Source: Deltaproteobacteria bacterium (lineage in GTDB: Bacteria; Myxococcota_A; UBA9160). Taken from it: a stretch of DNA of 32,305 nucleotides. Positions 3,369-15,616 of this stretch are shown here, piece by piece (the first letter of the stretch is position 1; every line of letters starts with the position of its first letter). The notes under the pieces were generated by a model. It searched no databases and was not told where the DNA came from. It was given only the letters and a program-made list of their open reading frames with translations. The stretch is from the NCBI GenBank assembly GCA_020849175.1, contig JADLGR010000302.1, positions 1-32,305 on the forward strand. Reading direction: 5' to 3'. The translations under genes were made by a program, and so were the position numbers.

Positions 3369-5423
3369 CTACGCAACCCCCCGCTTGTGAACGATCAGCA
3401 TCGAGGCCGGGCACTCGCTCGCGAGGCGCTCATGGCTCGTACCGAGATACGTCGGCTGCAAGCCCAGCTCCTCCGAGACGCCGATCACGACGAGGTCGTA
3501 TCCGCTCCGCGCCTCTTCGACCACGGTCTCGATCGGCTCCTGGCTCATCACCATCCGCACCGTGATCGCGGAGGAGTCGGCGAGGTCTTCGAGCGAGAGA
3601 CCGGGGGGCGCGGGCGGCGGTGCCGGCGTCGGGCGTACGACGTGGAGCACGGTGAGCTCGACGTCTTCCTGCGCGGCGATGCGCCGCGCGAGATCGAGAG
3701 CGCCGAGATCGTGCGCCGATCCGAGATAGGGAACGAGCACGCGGCGCCACGGGCGAAAGTGTCGCGGCAGATATACGGCCACGTCGGAACGCGCCGTCGT
3801 CATCACGTCGTAGATCGTCCCCGAGAGAATGCTCTGGCGCAGGACGGGCTTGTGCCAGCCCATGAGAAGAAGATCGGCGCGCTTGGCGTACGCCACCTCG
3901 ACGATGTCCCGCCCGATGTTCTGGCTCATGAACGTGAGCGGACGCACGTTCGTCCCCTGATCGGCCGCAGCCGCCAGCAGCGGCTGGAGCGTCTCGCTCT
4001 CGGCAGGACGGGTGAGCCGGCCTGGATCGAGCATCGCCTGGTCGGCCGCCGGGAGCAGGTGCAGCGCATAGATGCGGTCGCGGTCCGACGGGGCGAGACT
4101 CGCCGCCATTCGCAGCAGCTCGGGCCCCGCCGACGGGAGCGCCACGGGAACGAGCACCGTGAAGGCCTTGACGTCCTCCGGCACACCGAGCGCTTCTTCA
4201 CGGATCCGTCGCGCAGGATGGATCCACTCGACCAGTGGCGAGGTCATGAACGTCGTCACCAGCGCCATCAGCACCATCATCGTGAAGAGCGCGGGCGAGA
4301 TGACGCCGATTTCGAGGCCCACCGTGAGGAACACGAGCTGGATGAGACCGCGCGTGTTCATGAGGGCACCCAGGGCACTGGCCTCGCGCCATCCGAGTCC
4401 CGTGAGGCGCGCTGCGAGCGCGGAGCCGCCGAACTTTCCGATCACGGCGGCAAGGATGATGAGCGCGCAAGCGATCCACATCTCGGCGCCGCTCACGAGA
4501 CCAAGGCTCGTTCGAAGTCCGGTGACGGCGAAGAACAGCGGCAGCAGGAAGACGACCGTCACGTCGTGCAGCTTCTCTCCGAGCTCGTGAACGAAGCCCG
4601 AGTCCTTCGGCAGAATCGAGCCGAGGACGAACGCGCCGAACAGAGCATGGATGCCGAGCCACTCGGTCGCGTACGCCGAGAGTGCGAGCGCGACGAGGAC
4701 GATCGCGAGCATGTCCTGCGTGAGTCGCCCGCGGCTGTGGTAGTAGGCCTCGAGCCGGCGAAGCGCCGGCCGTGCGGCGTAGATCATTGCCAACACGTAG
4801 ACCGCAGATCCGACGAGCGTGAAGACGAGCGGCTGATCCCCGGCCTCGCTGCGAACGAGCGCGACGACGGCGGCGAGGATCACCCACGCCGTCACGTCGT
4901 CGATCGCAGCGCAGGCGATCGTCATGACGCCAAGGCGCGTTCGCAGCAGGTTGCGCTCGGCGAGAATGCGGGCCAGGACGGGGAAGGCCGTCACCGACAT
5001 CGCGGCGCCCATGAAGAGCGCGAACTCGTCGAAGCGTACGCTGCGGTCCGAGAGGCGCGGGTACAGATGCAGGGCGAGCAGTGCGCCGAGCAAGAACGGT
5101 ACCGCGATGCTCGCGTGACTGGTGACGATCGCAGCCCGCCCGCGGTTTCGAAGCAGCCTGGGATCGAGCTCGAGGCCGACGAGGAACATGAAGAGCAGGA
5201 CGCCAACCTGACTGAGAGGGCCCAGGTTCGCGAGGCTACCGGGTGGGAAGAGCCGGCCCGAGAGCTCGGGCGCCGCCCAGCCGAGCAGCGATGGGCCGAG
5301 CAGGAAGCCCGCCACCATCTCGCCCATGACCTGCGGCTGTCCCATGCGGCGAAAGACGAAGCCGGCAACGCGCGCCGTCGAGAGGATGACGGCGATCTGC
5401 AGCATGAGGATGAGCAGGGACAC
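3369..5423 (-). CDS. CPA2-family cation:proton antiporter with tandem C-terminal USP domains
   Basis: A 684-residue inner-membrane protein. Residues 1-400 form a Kef/CPA2-type antiporter with about 12 hydrophobic segments, including the family pattern GQPQVMGEMVAGFLLGPSLLG near the N terminus and AIDDVTAWVILA mid-membrane, whose Asp pair fits the ion-binding site. Residues ~405-540 and ~550-684 look like two universal-stress-protein domains (for example ADLLLMGWHKPV in the first, YDLVVIGVSEELG in the second) that would face the cytoplasm and bind nucleotide or regulate transport. No TrkA-N domain is present, unlike KefB/KefC. The transported ion (K+ or Na+) is not determinable. The start is MSLLILMLQ at 5423, 12 bp after the small anchored protein gene, so the two are probably one transcript. 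Confidence 0.9.
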   Translation of the reverse strand: MSLLILMLQIAVILSTARVAGFVFRRMGQPQVMGEMVAGFLLGPSLLGWAAPELSGRLFPPGSLANLGPLSQVGVLLFMFLVGLELDPRLLRNRGRAAIVTSHASIAVPFLLGALLALHLYPRLSDRSVRFDEFALFMGAAMSVTAFPVLARILAERNLLRTRLGVMTIACAAIDDVTAWVILAAVVALVRSEAGDQPLVFTLVGSAVYVLAMIYAARPALRRLEAYYHSRGRLTQDMLAIVLVALALSAYATEWLGIHALFGAFVLGSILPKDSGFVHELGEKLHDVTVVFLLPLFFAVTGLRTSLGLVSGAEMWIACALIILAAVIGKFGGSALAARLTGLGWREASALGALMNTRGLIQLVFLTVGLEIGVISPALFTMMVLMALVTTFMTSPLVEWIHPARRIREEALGVPEDVKAFTVLVPVALPSAGPELLRMAASLAPSDRDRIYALHLLPAADQAMLDPGRLTRPAESETLQPLLAAAADQGTNVRPLTFMSQNIGRDIVEVAYAKRADLLLMGWHKPVLRQSILSGTIYDVMTTARSDVAVYLPRHFRPWRRVLVPYLGSAHDLGALDLARRIAAQEDVELTVLHVVRPTPAPPPAPPGLSLEDLADSSAITVRMVMSQEPIETVVEEARSGYDLVVIGVSEELGLQPTYLGTSHERLASECPASMLIVHKRGVA

Positions 5424-7875: not shown

Positions 7876-9543
7876 CTAGCGGCGCCGCGTCGTCTCTTCG
7901 TAGAGCCGGTACCGCGTCTCCACCATTCCGAGTCTGTCGTAGGTCTGCCGGGCGCCGTCGTTCTCGCACTCGACATAGAGACGAAGGCCGTGGACGTCCG
8001 GCTCGCCGGCCGCAAGATCGCGGACGTGTTCGTGCAGCCGGCGGTAATGTCCGCGGCGCCGGTGCCCGGGATGGACGTAGACGTTCTGGATCCACCAGAA
8101 CCAGCCGTTTCTCCAGTCGCTCCACTCGGTGGTGAGCATGAGCGTCGCCACCACTTCGCCCGCCTCTTCGACGACGAATGTCCGCCCGCGCGTCGGGTCG
8201 GAGAGCAGCGAGGTCATGCCGGCACGCAGCGTCGCGGGATCGAGCGCCAGACTCTCGCTCTCCTTCGCCATCGCGAGGTTGAACGAGACGAGACGCTCGA
8301 CGTCGGACGGACGCGCCTCGCGAACGGCGGTCGCACCGCCGGCCGGAACGTCCGCACGCGACACCGAGCGCGGCGGCTCGATCACGACGGCTTGCGCGGT
8401 CGCGTACCGCGCGAGCGCCTCCTCGTCGAGCGTTACGCCGAGACCGGGCGCGGCCGGCACGCGGACGAAGCCGCCCGAGCAGTCGAGCGCGCCGGTCACG
8501 AGATCGTCCTCGAGCATGACGTGCCCGAAGAGCTCCATCGCGTGGCCGAGAGCGTCTGCGCGTGCGGCGCCGATGTGGGCCTGCGCCGCCGACGCGATTC
8601 CGAGCGGCTGATTGTGGAGGACGACGCCCATGCCGAGGCGTGCCGCTTCGTCGATCGCACGAAGCGCGAGCGTGATGCCGCCCGGCCGCTCCGAGTTGAC
8701 GCCGAGCACGCGAACGGCGCCGAGGTCGGCGAGGGCGAGAAAGTCGGCGAGCGAGAAGCAGCCTTCGTGCGCCATGAGCGGTACGTCGACGGCACGCTGC
8801 ACCTGCGCCATGCCGCGCCAGTCCGCGGCTGCGACGGGCTGCTCGGCGCAGTCGATCCCGAACGGCGTGATGGCGCGGATCGCCTCGATCGCCTCCGCCG
8901 GCGCGTACGCCTGGTTGTAGTCGACGCGCAGTCGAGCAGCCGCGCCGAGCGCGTCGCGCACGCGCGCGACGATCGCGCGGTCGACCTCGAAGCCGCGCCC
9001 GAGCTTGAGGCGGAAGGTCTGCACTCCGCCCTTCTGGAACGCGAGCGCGAGCGAAACCATCGAGCCGGGGTCCAACAGCGGCACGAGTGCCGCGAGCGGG
9101 AGCGACTGCACGCGCCCTCCCAGCAGCTCGCAGACGGGCCGCCCCGCGATTCGTCCGGCGAGGTCCCAGCACGCCATGTCGAGCAGGCCCTTCGCGACCT
9201 CGCAGCGGGCGACGTTTGCGTCCATGCGCGCCTGGAGCGCATCCACGTCGAACGGACTCGCGCCGAGAACGTAGCGTGCGAGGCCGCCCGCCACGGCGTC
9301 GATCACCTGCGCGGGCGAGACGCCCGTCTCGGGCAGCCAGACGAAGGCCTCGCCGACGCCCTGGCTTCCGTCCTGCGCCGTCAAGCGTGCGATCACGAAG
9401 TCGCCACCCTGCCACGGCTCCTCGGCGGCAATTGCCATGCCGAGGCCGCCCTCGGAGCGCGCCATGGTCTCGCGCACTTCGGCGCGGAAGGGCACGTGCA
9501 CCGGGAACAGCTCGATGCGTTCGATCGTCGGAGCTTCGCGCAT
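7876..9543 (-). CDS. Fusion of mandelate racemase/enolase-superfamily enzyme with GNAT acetyltransferase
   Basis: 555 residues from the ATG at 9543; the open frame upstream to 10080 runs antisense through the acyltransferase gene and lacks homology. Residues ~1-370 are enolase superfamily: TFRLKLG (second Lys of KxK kept, first is Arg), VDYNQAY, CAEQPV and AHEG supply the Asp, Glu and Glu metal ligands, and VVLHNQPLG has a His where mandelate racemase has its catalytic His. The Asp partnering that His in mandelate racemase aligns with Asn in GVNSERPGG. Residues ~385-550 form a GNAT domain (VYVHPGHRRRGHYRRL as the acetyl-CoA loop, then YVECENDGARQTYDRLGM). No frameshift or stop separates the halves. 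The enzyme may act on an amino-acid-like or hydroxy-acid substrate that is also N-acetylated; this is inference. Confidence 0.85.
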   Translation of the reverse strand: MREAPTIERIELFPVHVPFRAEVRETMARSEGGLGMAIAAEEPWQGGDFVIARLTAQDGSQGVGEAFVWLPETGVSPAQVIDAVAGGLARYVLGASPFDVDALQARMDANVARCEVAKGLLDMACWDLAGRIAGRPVCELLGGRVQSLPLAALVPLLDPGSMVSLALAFQKGGVQTFRLKLGRGFEVDRAIVARVRDALGAAARLRVDYNQAYAPAEAIEAIRAITPFGIDCAEQPVAAADWRGMAQVQRAVDVPLMAHEGCFSLADFLALADLGAVRVLGVNSERPGGITLALRAIDEAARLGMGVVLHNQPLGIASAAQAHIGAARADALGHAMELFGHVMLEDDLVTGALDCSGGFVRVPAAPGLGVTLDEEALARYATAQAVVIEPPRSVSRADVPAGGATAVREARPSDVERLVSFNLAMAKESESLALDPATLRAGMTSLLSDPTRGRTFVVEEAGEVVATLMLTTEWSDWRNGWFWWIQNVYVHPGHRRRGHYRRLHEHVRDLAAGEPDVHGLRLYVECENDGARQTYDRLGMVETRYRLYEETTRRR

Positions 9544-14390: not shown

Positions 14391-15032
14391 GTGGGACGTG
14401 ACCGATTCTACCGGCGAGTGAGGCCACAGCGAACGGTACGGCGTCTCACGCTGCCGCTCTTCGCGCTGTCTTCGCTCCTCGTGGCGACCTCGGCGCTCGC
14501 ACACACCGGGCAGCAAGACGCGGCGAGCGGATTCGCCGCTGGCTTCCTGCATCCGATCACCGGCTTCGACCACCTTCTCGCGATGCTCGCGGTCGGCATG
14601 TGGGGAGCGCAGCTCGGCATGCCGGCGCTCTGGGTGCTGCCCGTCGCGTTCCCGCTGGTCATGGCCGTCGGCGGCGCGCTCGGGATCCTCGGCGCTCCGC
14701 TACCGGCCGTCGAGCCCGCGATCGTTCTCTCGGTGCTGCTGCTCGGAGTCGTGATCGCGATCGGCCGCAAGCCGCCAATCGTCTTCGCAGCCGCGCTCGT
14801 CGCCTTCTTCGCGGTCTTTCACGGCTACGCGCATGGTCGCGAGCTTCCCGAGGCCGCGAGCGCGATGGCCTTCAGTGCGGGCTTCGTGCTGGCGACCGGA
14901 TGCATTCACCTGACCGGGATCGGCATCGGCTTCGTGACGAAGCTTCCGAACGGGAGTCTGCTGCTGCGCGCCGGCGGCGCCGCGATCGCGATGGCCGGCG
15001 TCCTGTTCGCGTGGCACCTCGGCGGGGCGTAG
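14391..15032 (+). CDS. HupE/UreJ-family membrane protein
   Basis: 213 residues from a GTG at 14391 preceded by GGGAGGA; the track's start at 13749 lies inside the SDR gene. An N-terminal signal sequence ends near SALAHTG, and the diagnostic HupE segment GFLHPITGFDHLLAMLAVGMWG follows, then five or six membrane helices. The His and Asp residues of HPxxGxDH are thought to bind Ni2+ or Co2+, and the family is assigned to nickel or cobalt uptake, originally next to hydrogenase and urease genes. Neither enzyme is in this window. The next gene overlaps its 3' end and is a related protein, so they are almost surely co-translated. Confidence 0.85.
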   Translation: MGRDRFYRRVRPQRTVRRLTLPLFALSSLLVATSALAHTGQQDAASGFAAGFLHPITGFDHLLAMLAVGMWGAQLGMPALWVLPVAFPLVMAVGGALGILGAPLPAVEPAIVLSVLLLGVVIAIGRKPPIVFAAALVAFFAVFHGYAHGRELPEAASAMAFSAGFVLATGCIHLTGIGIGFVTKLPNGSLLLRAGGAAIAMAGVLFAWHLGGA

Positions 15033-15616
15033 CCCGCGCGGCGCTGGCAGCGCTCGCGTCGATGGCCATTGCCGCACCGGCGCACGCACACGGCGACGCG
15101 AACCTCGGCGATTTCTACCAGGGCCTTCTTCAGCCGCTGTACCATCTCGAGTTCCTGCTCGCGGCGCTGGCGCTCGCGCTCTTCTCGACACACCAGGAGC
15201 CGCGCGCCTCCCTCACGATGTGCGCGAGCTTCGCGGCCGGAGTCGCGTTCGGCAGCGCCTCGTCGCTGCTCGGTGTCGGTGGCGAGGGATCGCTCTGGGG
15301 ACCGCGACTGTGCATGCTCGGTGTGGGGCCGATGGTGGCGCTGCGCCTGCGGGTGCCCGCGATCGTGGCCATGGCGCTCGGCGCCGTGGCCGGCATCGCG
15401 CAGGGGCACGCCGCGACGCAGGGCGAGCTCGCGCAGATCGCGCGGCCCGTGCTGTGGACGCTCGGCCTCGCGGTCGGCGCCGGCCTGCTCGGCGCATGGG
15501 CCAACGCCGTGACGGACCGCTTCCGCGCCTTCTGGGTGCAGGTCGGCGTGCGAATCGCCGGGAGCTGGATCGCCGCTCTTGGCCTGCTCGCGAGCGTGCT
15601 GGCGCTACGGCGATGA
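15011..15616 (+). CDS. Second HupE/UreJ-like membrane protein
   Basis: About 201 residues if it starts at the GTG at 15011, which gives a complete signal peptide (VAPRRGVARAALAALASMAIAAPAHA) and overlaps the upstream stop by 22 bp; a start at the ATG 15062 would leave only a stub of the signal. After the cleavage site comes GDFYQGLLQPLYHLEFLLAALALALFS, laid out like the HupE metal-binding start but with QPLYHLEF in place of HPxxGxDH, so only one His of the motif remains. Five or so further hydrophobic helices follow. It is likely a diverged partner of the preceding gene, perhaps forming a heteromeric transporter. The start codon is uncertain and the metal-binding role is inference. Confidence 0.75.
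   Translation: MAPRRGVARAALAALASMAIAAPAHAHGDANLGDFYQGLLQPLYHLEFLLAALALALFSTHQEPRASLTMCASFAAGVAFGSASSLLGVGGEGSLWGPRLCMLGVGPMVALRLRVPAIVAMALGAVAGIAQGHAATQGELAQIARPVLWTLGLAVGAGLLGAWANAVTDRFRAFWVQVGVRIAGSWIAALGLLASVLALRR

Follow-up and report, generated by a model that had tools for sequence, protein, structure and literature searches.

A single open frame on the minus strand of the window (the whole stretch of DNA analysed, the 32,305-nucleotide contig JADLGR010000302.1) joins a complete enolase-superfamily enzyme to a complete GNAT acetyltransferase, and the fusion is restricted to the window's own genome. In every other genome examined the two halves are separate genes. The fusion supports a functional pairing of the enolase and the GNAT. 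Such a merger points to two enzymes that act one after the other, with molecules resembling amino acids as the most likely substrates. The reading we favour, tentatively, is a bifunctional enzyme that acylates and inverts an amino-acid-like substrate and that arose from the recent fusion of operon neighbours.

Frame and domains of the fused gene

The frame comprises 555 codons plus a stop (Table 1). An earlier note on this DNA had described it as uninterrupted, and as joining a racemase-like fold to a complete GNAT domain; both descriptions are borne out. The frame is free of stops, and the coding statistics are positive in this frame only, favouring it along both domains, with a neutral score confined to the linker (residues ~391-420). 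Pfam places MR_MLE_N (PF02746) at residues 47-142 (1.9e-11) and MR_MLE_C (PF13378) at 164-376 (5.6e-47), both above the cut-off, and Acetyltransf_1 (PF00583) at 447-540 (3.5e-13). The complete enolase-superfamily fold extends over residues ~7-388 and the complete GNAT over ~405-552. Structure prediction, which had been proposed as a check, folds both halves: the AlphaFold model, built from 68 sequences, has a mean pLDDT of 92.5, with a floppy linker, disordered at residues 398-402, between two well-defined domains. Against the same-genus relative, the enolase part shows dN 0.19 and dS 0.69 and the GNAT part dN 0.20 and dS 0.86; purifying selection acts on both domains. No promoter- or terminator-like sites were found near the fused gene, and no Rfam matches across the window.

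The GNAT half carries PF13508 above the Pfam cut-off in addition to PF00583, and matches PDB 3dsb over the whole domain in phmmer (4.4e-34). Its signature EWSDWRNGWFWWIQNVYV is common to stand-alone GNATs of many phyla; 3dsb, a 'putative acetyltransferase' of the same family that differs in being stand-alone, shares the EWSDWRNG...WIQ(S/N)VYV signature. We know of no established function for 3dsb. The loop R495-RRGHY500, whose last position is Tyr or Phe in most of this GNAT family by alignment, is the acetyl-CoA pyrophosphate-binding loop by the Q/RxxGxG/A motif established for GNATs. Stand-alone GNATs of the same large family, 43-74% identical to this half, occur in Myxococcota, Planctomycetota, Acidobacteria and others, and GNATs of this family are found without the enolase in many phyla. 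The genes next to them in Planctomycetes and Acidobacteria, among them phosphoribosyltransferase-like and PRA-CH genes, pointed to no particular substrate. In Planctomycetes, the stand-alone GNAT gene is regularly divergent from a gene of ~170 aa with a phosphoribosyltransferase domain (L033-L081, 19 loci; for example L054, 7577-8086).

Elsewhere in the window, one 684-aa protein (3369-5423) combines a sodium/proton antiporter domain with two universal stress protein domains, and two tandem HupE/UreJ membrane proteins are encoded at 14481-15616, in a neighbourhood that lacks urease and hydrogenase genes.

Table 1. Position of the fused gene, its domains and the residues discussed, in window coordinates
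Feature	Position	Strand	Basis
Whole fused gene, 555 aa	7876..9543	-	ATG at 9543, TAG stop at 7878-7876; stop-free single frame
Enolase-superfamily domain, residues 1-388 (N-terminal capping domain and barrel)	8380..9543	-	PF02746 and PF13378; pLDDT mostly >90
Linker, residues 389-404	8332..8379	-	pLDDT <50 at 398-402; coding score 0.02
GNAT acetyltransferase domain, residues 405-555	7879..8331	-	PF00583; phmmer match to PDB 3dsb
R178-L179-K180, KxK position, end of barrel strand 2	9004..9012	-	alignment, model
D208, first metal ligand position (strand 3)	8920..8922	-	alignment, model
E234, second metal ligand position (strand 4)	8842..8844	-	alignment, model
H259, replacing the third metal ligand Asp/Glu (strand 5); subfamily-invariant	8767..8769	-	alignment, model
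N283 (strand 6); Lys in MLE-type relatives	8695..8697	-	alignment, model
H310 (strand 7), candidate general acid/base; Gly or Thr in distant homologues	8614..8616	-	alignment, model
E337 (strand 8), invariant	8533..8535	-	alignment, model
R495-R-R-G-H-Y500, acetyl-CoA pyrophosphate-binding loop (Q/RxxGxG/A position)	8044..8061	-	alignment columns

Separate genes in relatives and the origin of the fusion

The enolase half is 71-76% identical to the stand-alone enolases of loci L003-L008, L112 and L115, and 53-68% identical to those of L009-L012, L113 and L114. The subfamily occurs in only 10 of 379 genomes of the phylum. Among 98 relatives, ten carry the enolase, ten carry the GNAT (E<=1e-20) and seven carry both; in these seven the two are always side by side or fused, and an overlap of this size would arise by chance with a probability of 9.5e-7 if kinship is ignored. 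The search for an enolase-GNAT architecture proposed earlier thus yields the fused form in the window but no second case in 80 loci, 98 relatives or 379 phylum genomes, and a literature search for such fusions returned nothing useful. An extended tblastn match to the GNAT in G021 (residues 284-554) was considered as a second fusion and rejected, because the match runs by chance into the reading frame upstream. An enolase of the same subfamily (55%) is also encoded at L009 8088-9161, on a contig from the bin of an Asgard archaeon (Sigynarchaeum); it has a long branch and deviating composition, and may reflect transfer or mis-binning.

Unfused enolase and GNAT genes adjoin on the same strand in seven relatives. 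In six (L003, L005-L008, L112), the enolase, an amidohydrolase and the GNAT are successive same-strand genes, mostly separated by gaps of 0-23 nt or joined by ATGA-type overlaps. The order in L003, L006, L007, L008 and L112 is enolase, YtcJ-like amidohydrolase, in some a DUF2817 gene, and GNAT; L005 has the same order with a damaged middle gene. The amidohydrolase gene of L005 is frameshifted at about 5520, where matches resume in another frame, by sequencing error or gene decay; an apparent 888-aa amidohydrolase-DUF2817 fusion at this locus was rejected as a product of the frameshift. G041, G071 and G080 have the enolase and amidohydrolase without the GNAT, as do Rhodobiaceae/Parvibaculum (L010-L012), where the enolase is accompanied by DUF2817, a diaminopimelate/ornithine-type PLP decarboxylase and the amidohydrolase. 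An RpiR-type regulator lies upstream on the opposite strand in L010-L012; such a gene occupies the same place in L006, and homologues are found there in L114 and L008. Enolase, YtcJ-like amidohydrolase and DUF2817 form a conserved, uncharacterised set (L003 3151-4785, L006 9173-11955, L114 1970-4671, L010 9172-13071). The operon GNATs and that of L013 form one supported clade (98/94).

DUF2817 displays the HxxE...H...E and DLNRNF residue pattern of M14 metallo-enzymes. Foldseek ranks succinylglutamate desuccinylase/aspartoacylase-like proteins and the cyanophycin dipeptide hydrolase CphZ at the top for its model, with low TM-scores (0.3-0.5); a literature search on its function gave nothing useful. 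Orthologues of the amidohydrolase and DUF2817 are absent from the window genome, a draft of 371 contigs that is 94.8% complete, which has only amidohydrolase paralogues of 30-39% identity and no DUF2817. The complete pathway is therefore not visible in this genome.

The only same-genus genome (L004/G001) has the enolase and GNAT as neighbours with a 67-nt gap, and no amidohydrolase gene between them; the two were therefore already adjacent before the fusion. Both window halves pair with L004 in the trees (enolase 82/92, GNAT 92/80). A stop near 8350, separating two genes, had been named as the finding that would speak against a single protein. Such a stop is present at that place in the sister species, where the enolase ends with TAG at 2250-2252 and the GNAT starts with GTG at 2320, preceded by a GAAAGAGG-like, ribosome-binding-like sequence; the window has no such stop. 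The window junction is the L004 junction shortened, in frame and stop-free, and the linker is the former intergenic stretch. Because the halves are separate elsewhere, including in the one same-genus genome, the fusion is a recent event of a single lineage or, less likely, an assembly error. The simplest history consistent with the sequences would be that the genus first lost the amidohydrolase gene and that a small deletion then removed the stop.

Active site of the enolase half

The N-succinyl-Arg/Lys racemase 2p88 ranks first for the enolase half both by profile (2.1e-56) and by fold (3.7e-29), with a Foldseek TM-score of 0.91 by target length; dipeptide epimerases and muconate lactonising enzymes (MLE) are the other nearest structures by both measures. 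The NCBIfam model of DgcA (N-acetyl-D-Glu racemase, NF042940) scores 75.2 bits against a cut-off of 400, and muconate cycloisomerase, galactarate/talarate dehydratase and cis-3-hydroxyproline dehydratase also match below cut-off. The capping domain and (beta/alpha)7beta barrel of the superfamily are recovered by Pfam, the model and Foldseek.

The residues of the active site depart from those of the nearest relatives. K180, D208, E234, H259, N283, H310 and E337 are invariant in all 15 aligned subfamily members; R178 is kept in 14, with Cys in L011. The superfamily has three acidic or Asn metal ligands, located where strands 3, 4 and 5 end. The earlier note had stated that the metal ligands are kept, which holds for D208 and E234 and fails for the third. 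At that place all 15 subfamily members have His259, in contrast to the Asp of the five top PDB hits and of 14 distant homologues of the enolase in related genomes. The same five structures and 14 homologues have Lys-x-Lys on strand 2 and Lys on strand 6, the positions that characterise N-succinylamino acid racemases (NSAR), dipeptide epimerases and MLE. The replacement of the first Lys by Arg noticed earlier is found at R178, with the catalytic second Lys retained as K180; on strand 6 the second catalytic Lys is replaced by the invariant N283. The description of a kept catalytic His with its Asp changed to Asn is apt when mandelate racemase serves as the yardstick for its His-Asp dyad: H310 stands on strand 7 and its partner on strand 6 is N283, the positions being judged by strand. 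The nearest relatives are, however, of the MLE and N-acyl-amino-acid racemase kind, with Lys at the position of N283. K164, E247 and D270 of mandelate racemase (established numbering, matched by strand) presumably correspond to R178, H259 and N283. Mandelate racemase also resembles the enolase half in the second Lys of KxK, the strand-7 His and the strand-8 Glu, again by strand, and differs in that the overall sequence is nearer to MLE-type enzymes. By alignment, R178, N283 and H310 distinguish the subfamily from the N-acyl-amino-acid racemases and dipeptide epimerases that are its nearest relatives in sequence and fold.

Known pathways, proposed reaction and its alternatives

In the Geobacillus NSAR pathway, the published scheme nearest to this pairing and the one of which the fused protein would be a one-chain version, an enolase-superfamily racemase reportedly inverts N-acylated D-amino acids and a hydrolase is said to free the L-amino acid. 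A passage in PMC8762209, citing Sakai et al. 2006, describes a GNAT-related enzyme that N-acylates D-amino acids alongside an enolase-superfamily N-succinyl-amino-acid racemase. The likeness to the fused protein lies in the same two folds, one N-acylating and one probably racemising, in 2p88 as the best match and in the hydrolases of the relatives' operon. The fused protein differs in being one chain and in its RxK, His259 and Asn for the strand-6 Lys; the full set of enolase, GNAT and putative hydrolases is found in six relatives, whose hydrolases are of amidohydrolase and M14 types and are missing from the window genome. The earlier note knew of no characterised enzyme with this architecture. 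The architecture indeed has no known precedent; the pairing is less unprecedented than the note assumed, since the published NSAR scheme, which joins these two activities, is a precedent in kind.

DgcN-DgcA likewise runs via N-acetylation, to which the NCBIfam name 'N-acetyl-D-Glu racemase DgcA' points, followed by racemisation; DgcN is not known to be a GNAT. It is a known route from D-Glu to L-Glu (PMC10845958) and has been called an irreversible racemisation pathway (PMC12363236). The DgcA model matches the enolase half weakly, far under its cut-off. The dipeptide epimerases (L-Ala-D/L-Glu, YcjG/YkfB, 3jva, 1jpm) share the fold at ~27-30% identity, and the M14-type enzymes neighbouring the relatives' enolases recall murein-peptide use. 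Their two-Lys mechanism is impossible here because the strand-6 Lys is Asn283, and the metal ligand is altered as well.

In the reaction we infer, the GNAT half would acylate the amine of an amino-acid-like substrate, with acetyl-CoA or succinyl-CoA as the donor. K180 of the enolase half would then abstract the alpha-proton from this N-acylated acid with the help of a divalent metal bound by D208, E234 and probably H259, and the return of a proton from the H310 side would invert the centre by racemisation or epimerisation. The relatives' hydrolases (YtcJ-like amidohydrolase and M14-type DUF2817) could remove the acyl group or cleave a peptide bond, and such hydrolysis would pull the conversion one way. 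The earlier proposal that one substrate is both epimerised and N-acylated gains support from the operon context and from the unfused same-strand neighbours in seven relatives. An operon that includes two putative amide hydrolases, and sometimes a diaminopimelate/ornithine-type decarboxylase, is in keeping with a role in processing N-acyl amino acids or peptides. Acylation followed by inversion is opposed by the three altered positions that define NSAR and dipeptide epimerases (KxK to RxK, Asp to His259, strand-6 Lys to Asn283), by the hydrolase orthologues missing from its own genome, by the low TM-scores of the DUF2817 matches, and by the occurrence of family GNATs without the enolase and of some enolase operons without the GNAT.

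Because catalytic residues have changed, the reaction may be a different one, with elimination as the main rival. A real fusion whose enolase half carries out another enolate reaction (dehydration, beta-elimination or cycloisomerisation) on an amino or hydroxy acid, with the GNAT acylating the product or a related amine, is rather unlikely, yet it is the rival that we take most seriously. RxK, His259, Asn283 and His310 are unlike those of known racemases of this type, the sub-cut-off NCBIfam matches include a muconate cycloisomerase and two dehydratases, and elimination could draw on the strand-7 His, which has no Asp partner, as its general acid; on the other hand, the nearest folds and profiles are amino-acid and dipeptide epimerases and MLE rather than sugar-acid dehydratases, and the operon partners resemble amide hydrolases. 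Loss of normal Mg2+ enolate chemistry, leaving the enolase half as a scaffold or with another metal and the GNAT as the sole conventional activity, is very improbable. The His at the third metal position throughout the subfamily would agree with such a loss, but no member departs from the second Lys, D208, E234, N283, H310 or E337, and the subfamily occurs in several phyla, in operons of its own and under strong purifying selection.

It is also improbable, though less so, that the joined frame results from faulty sequencing or assembly of a metagenome-assembled genome, or from meaningless read-through of a lost stop, with the proteins separate in life. The two genes of all other genomes, the stop and 67-nt gap of L004, the neutral coding statistics across the linker and the fragmented draft would all agree with this. 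However, the joining frame is stop-free, so that two genes would arise only through a frameshift or a newly acquired stop. The in-frame GTGs at residues 387 and 394 have no ribosome-binding-like sequence before them, with 3/6 matches against 5/6 before the L004 GNAT, although the start of the whole fused frame also has only 3/6. The same-genus genome, moreover, lacks an amidohydrolase between the pair as well.

How to assign functions in the enolase superfamily has long been a problem, for which gene fusions offer some of the best clues by indicating which enzymes share a substrate. The fusion, together with the relatives' operon, narrows the substrate to a carboxylate with an acylatable amine and names a testable set of enzymes. 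More guardedly than for the reaction itself, we suggest that the subfamily may be a new enolase subgroup with a two-carboxylate/one-His metal site and an RxK/Asn/His set, coupled to an N-acyltransferase, through the operon and in the window through fusion, in a pathway that acylates and then inverts (or eliminates) an amino acid derivative. Of more lasting interest is the conserved enolase subfamily that carries His at the third metal position, along with its operon. If the invariant His that replaces an acidic ligand does bind the metal, it would widen the known range of active sites in the superfamily.
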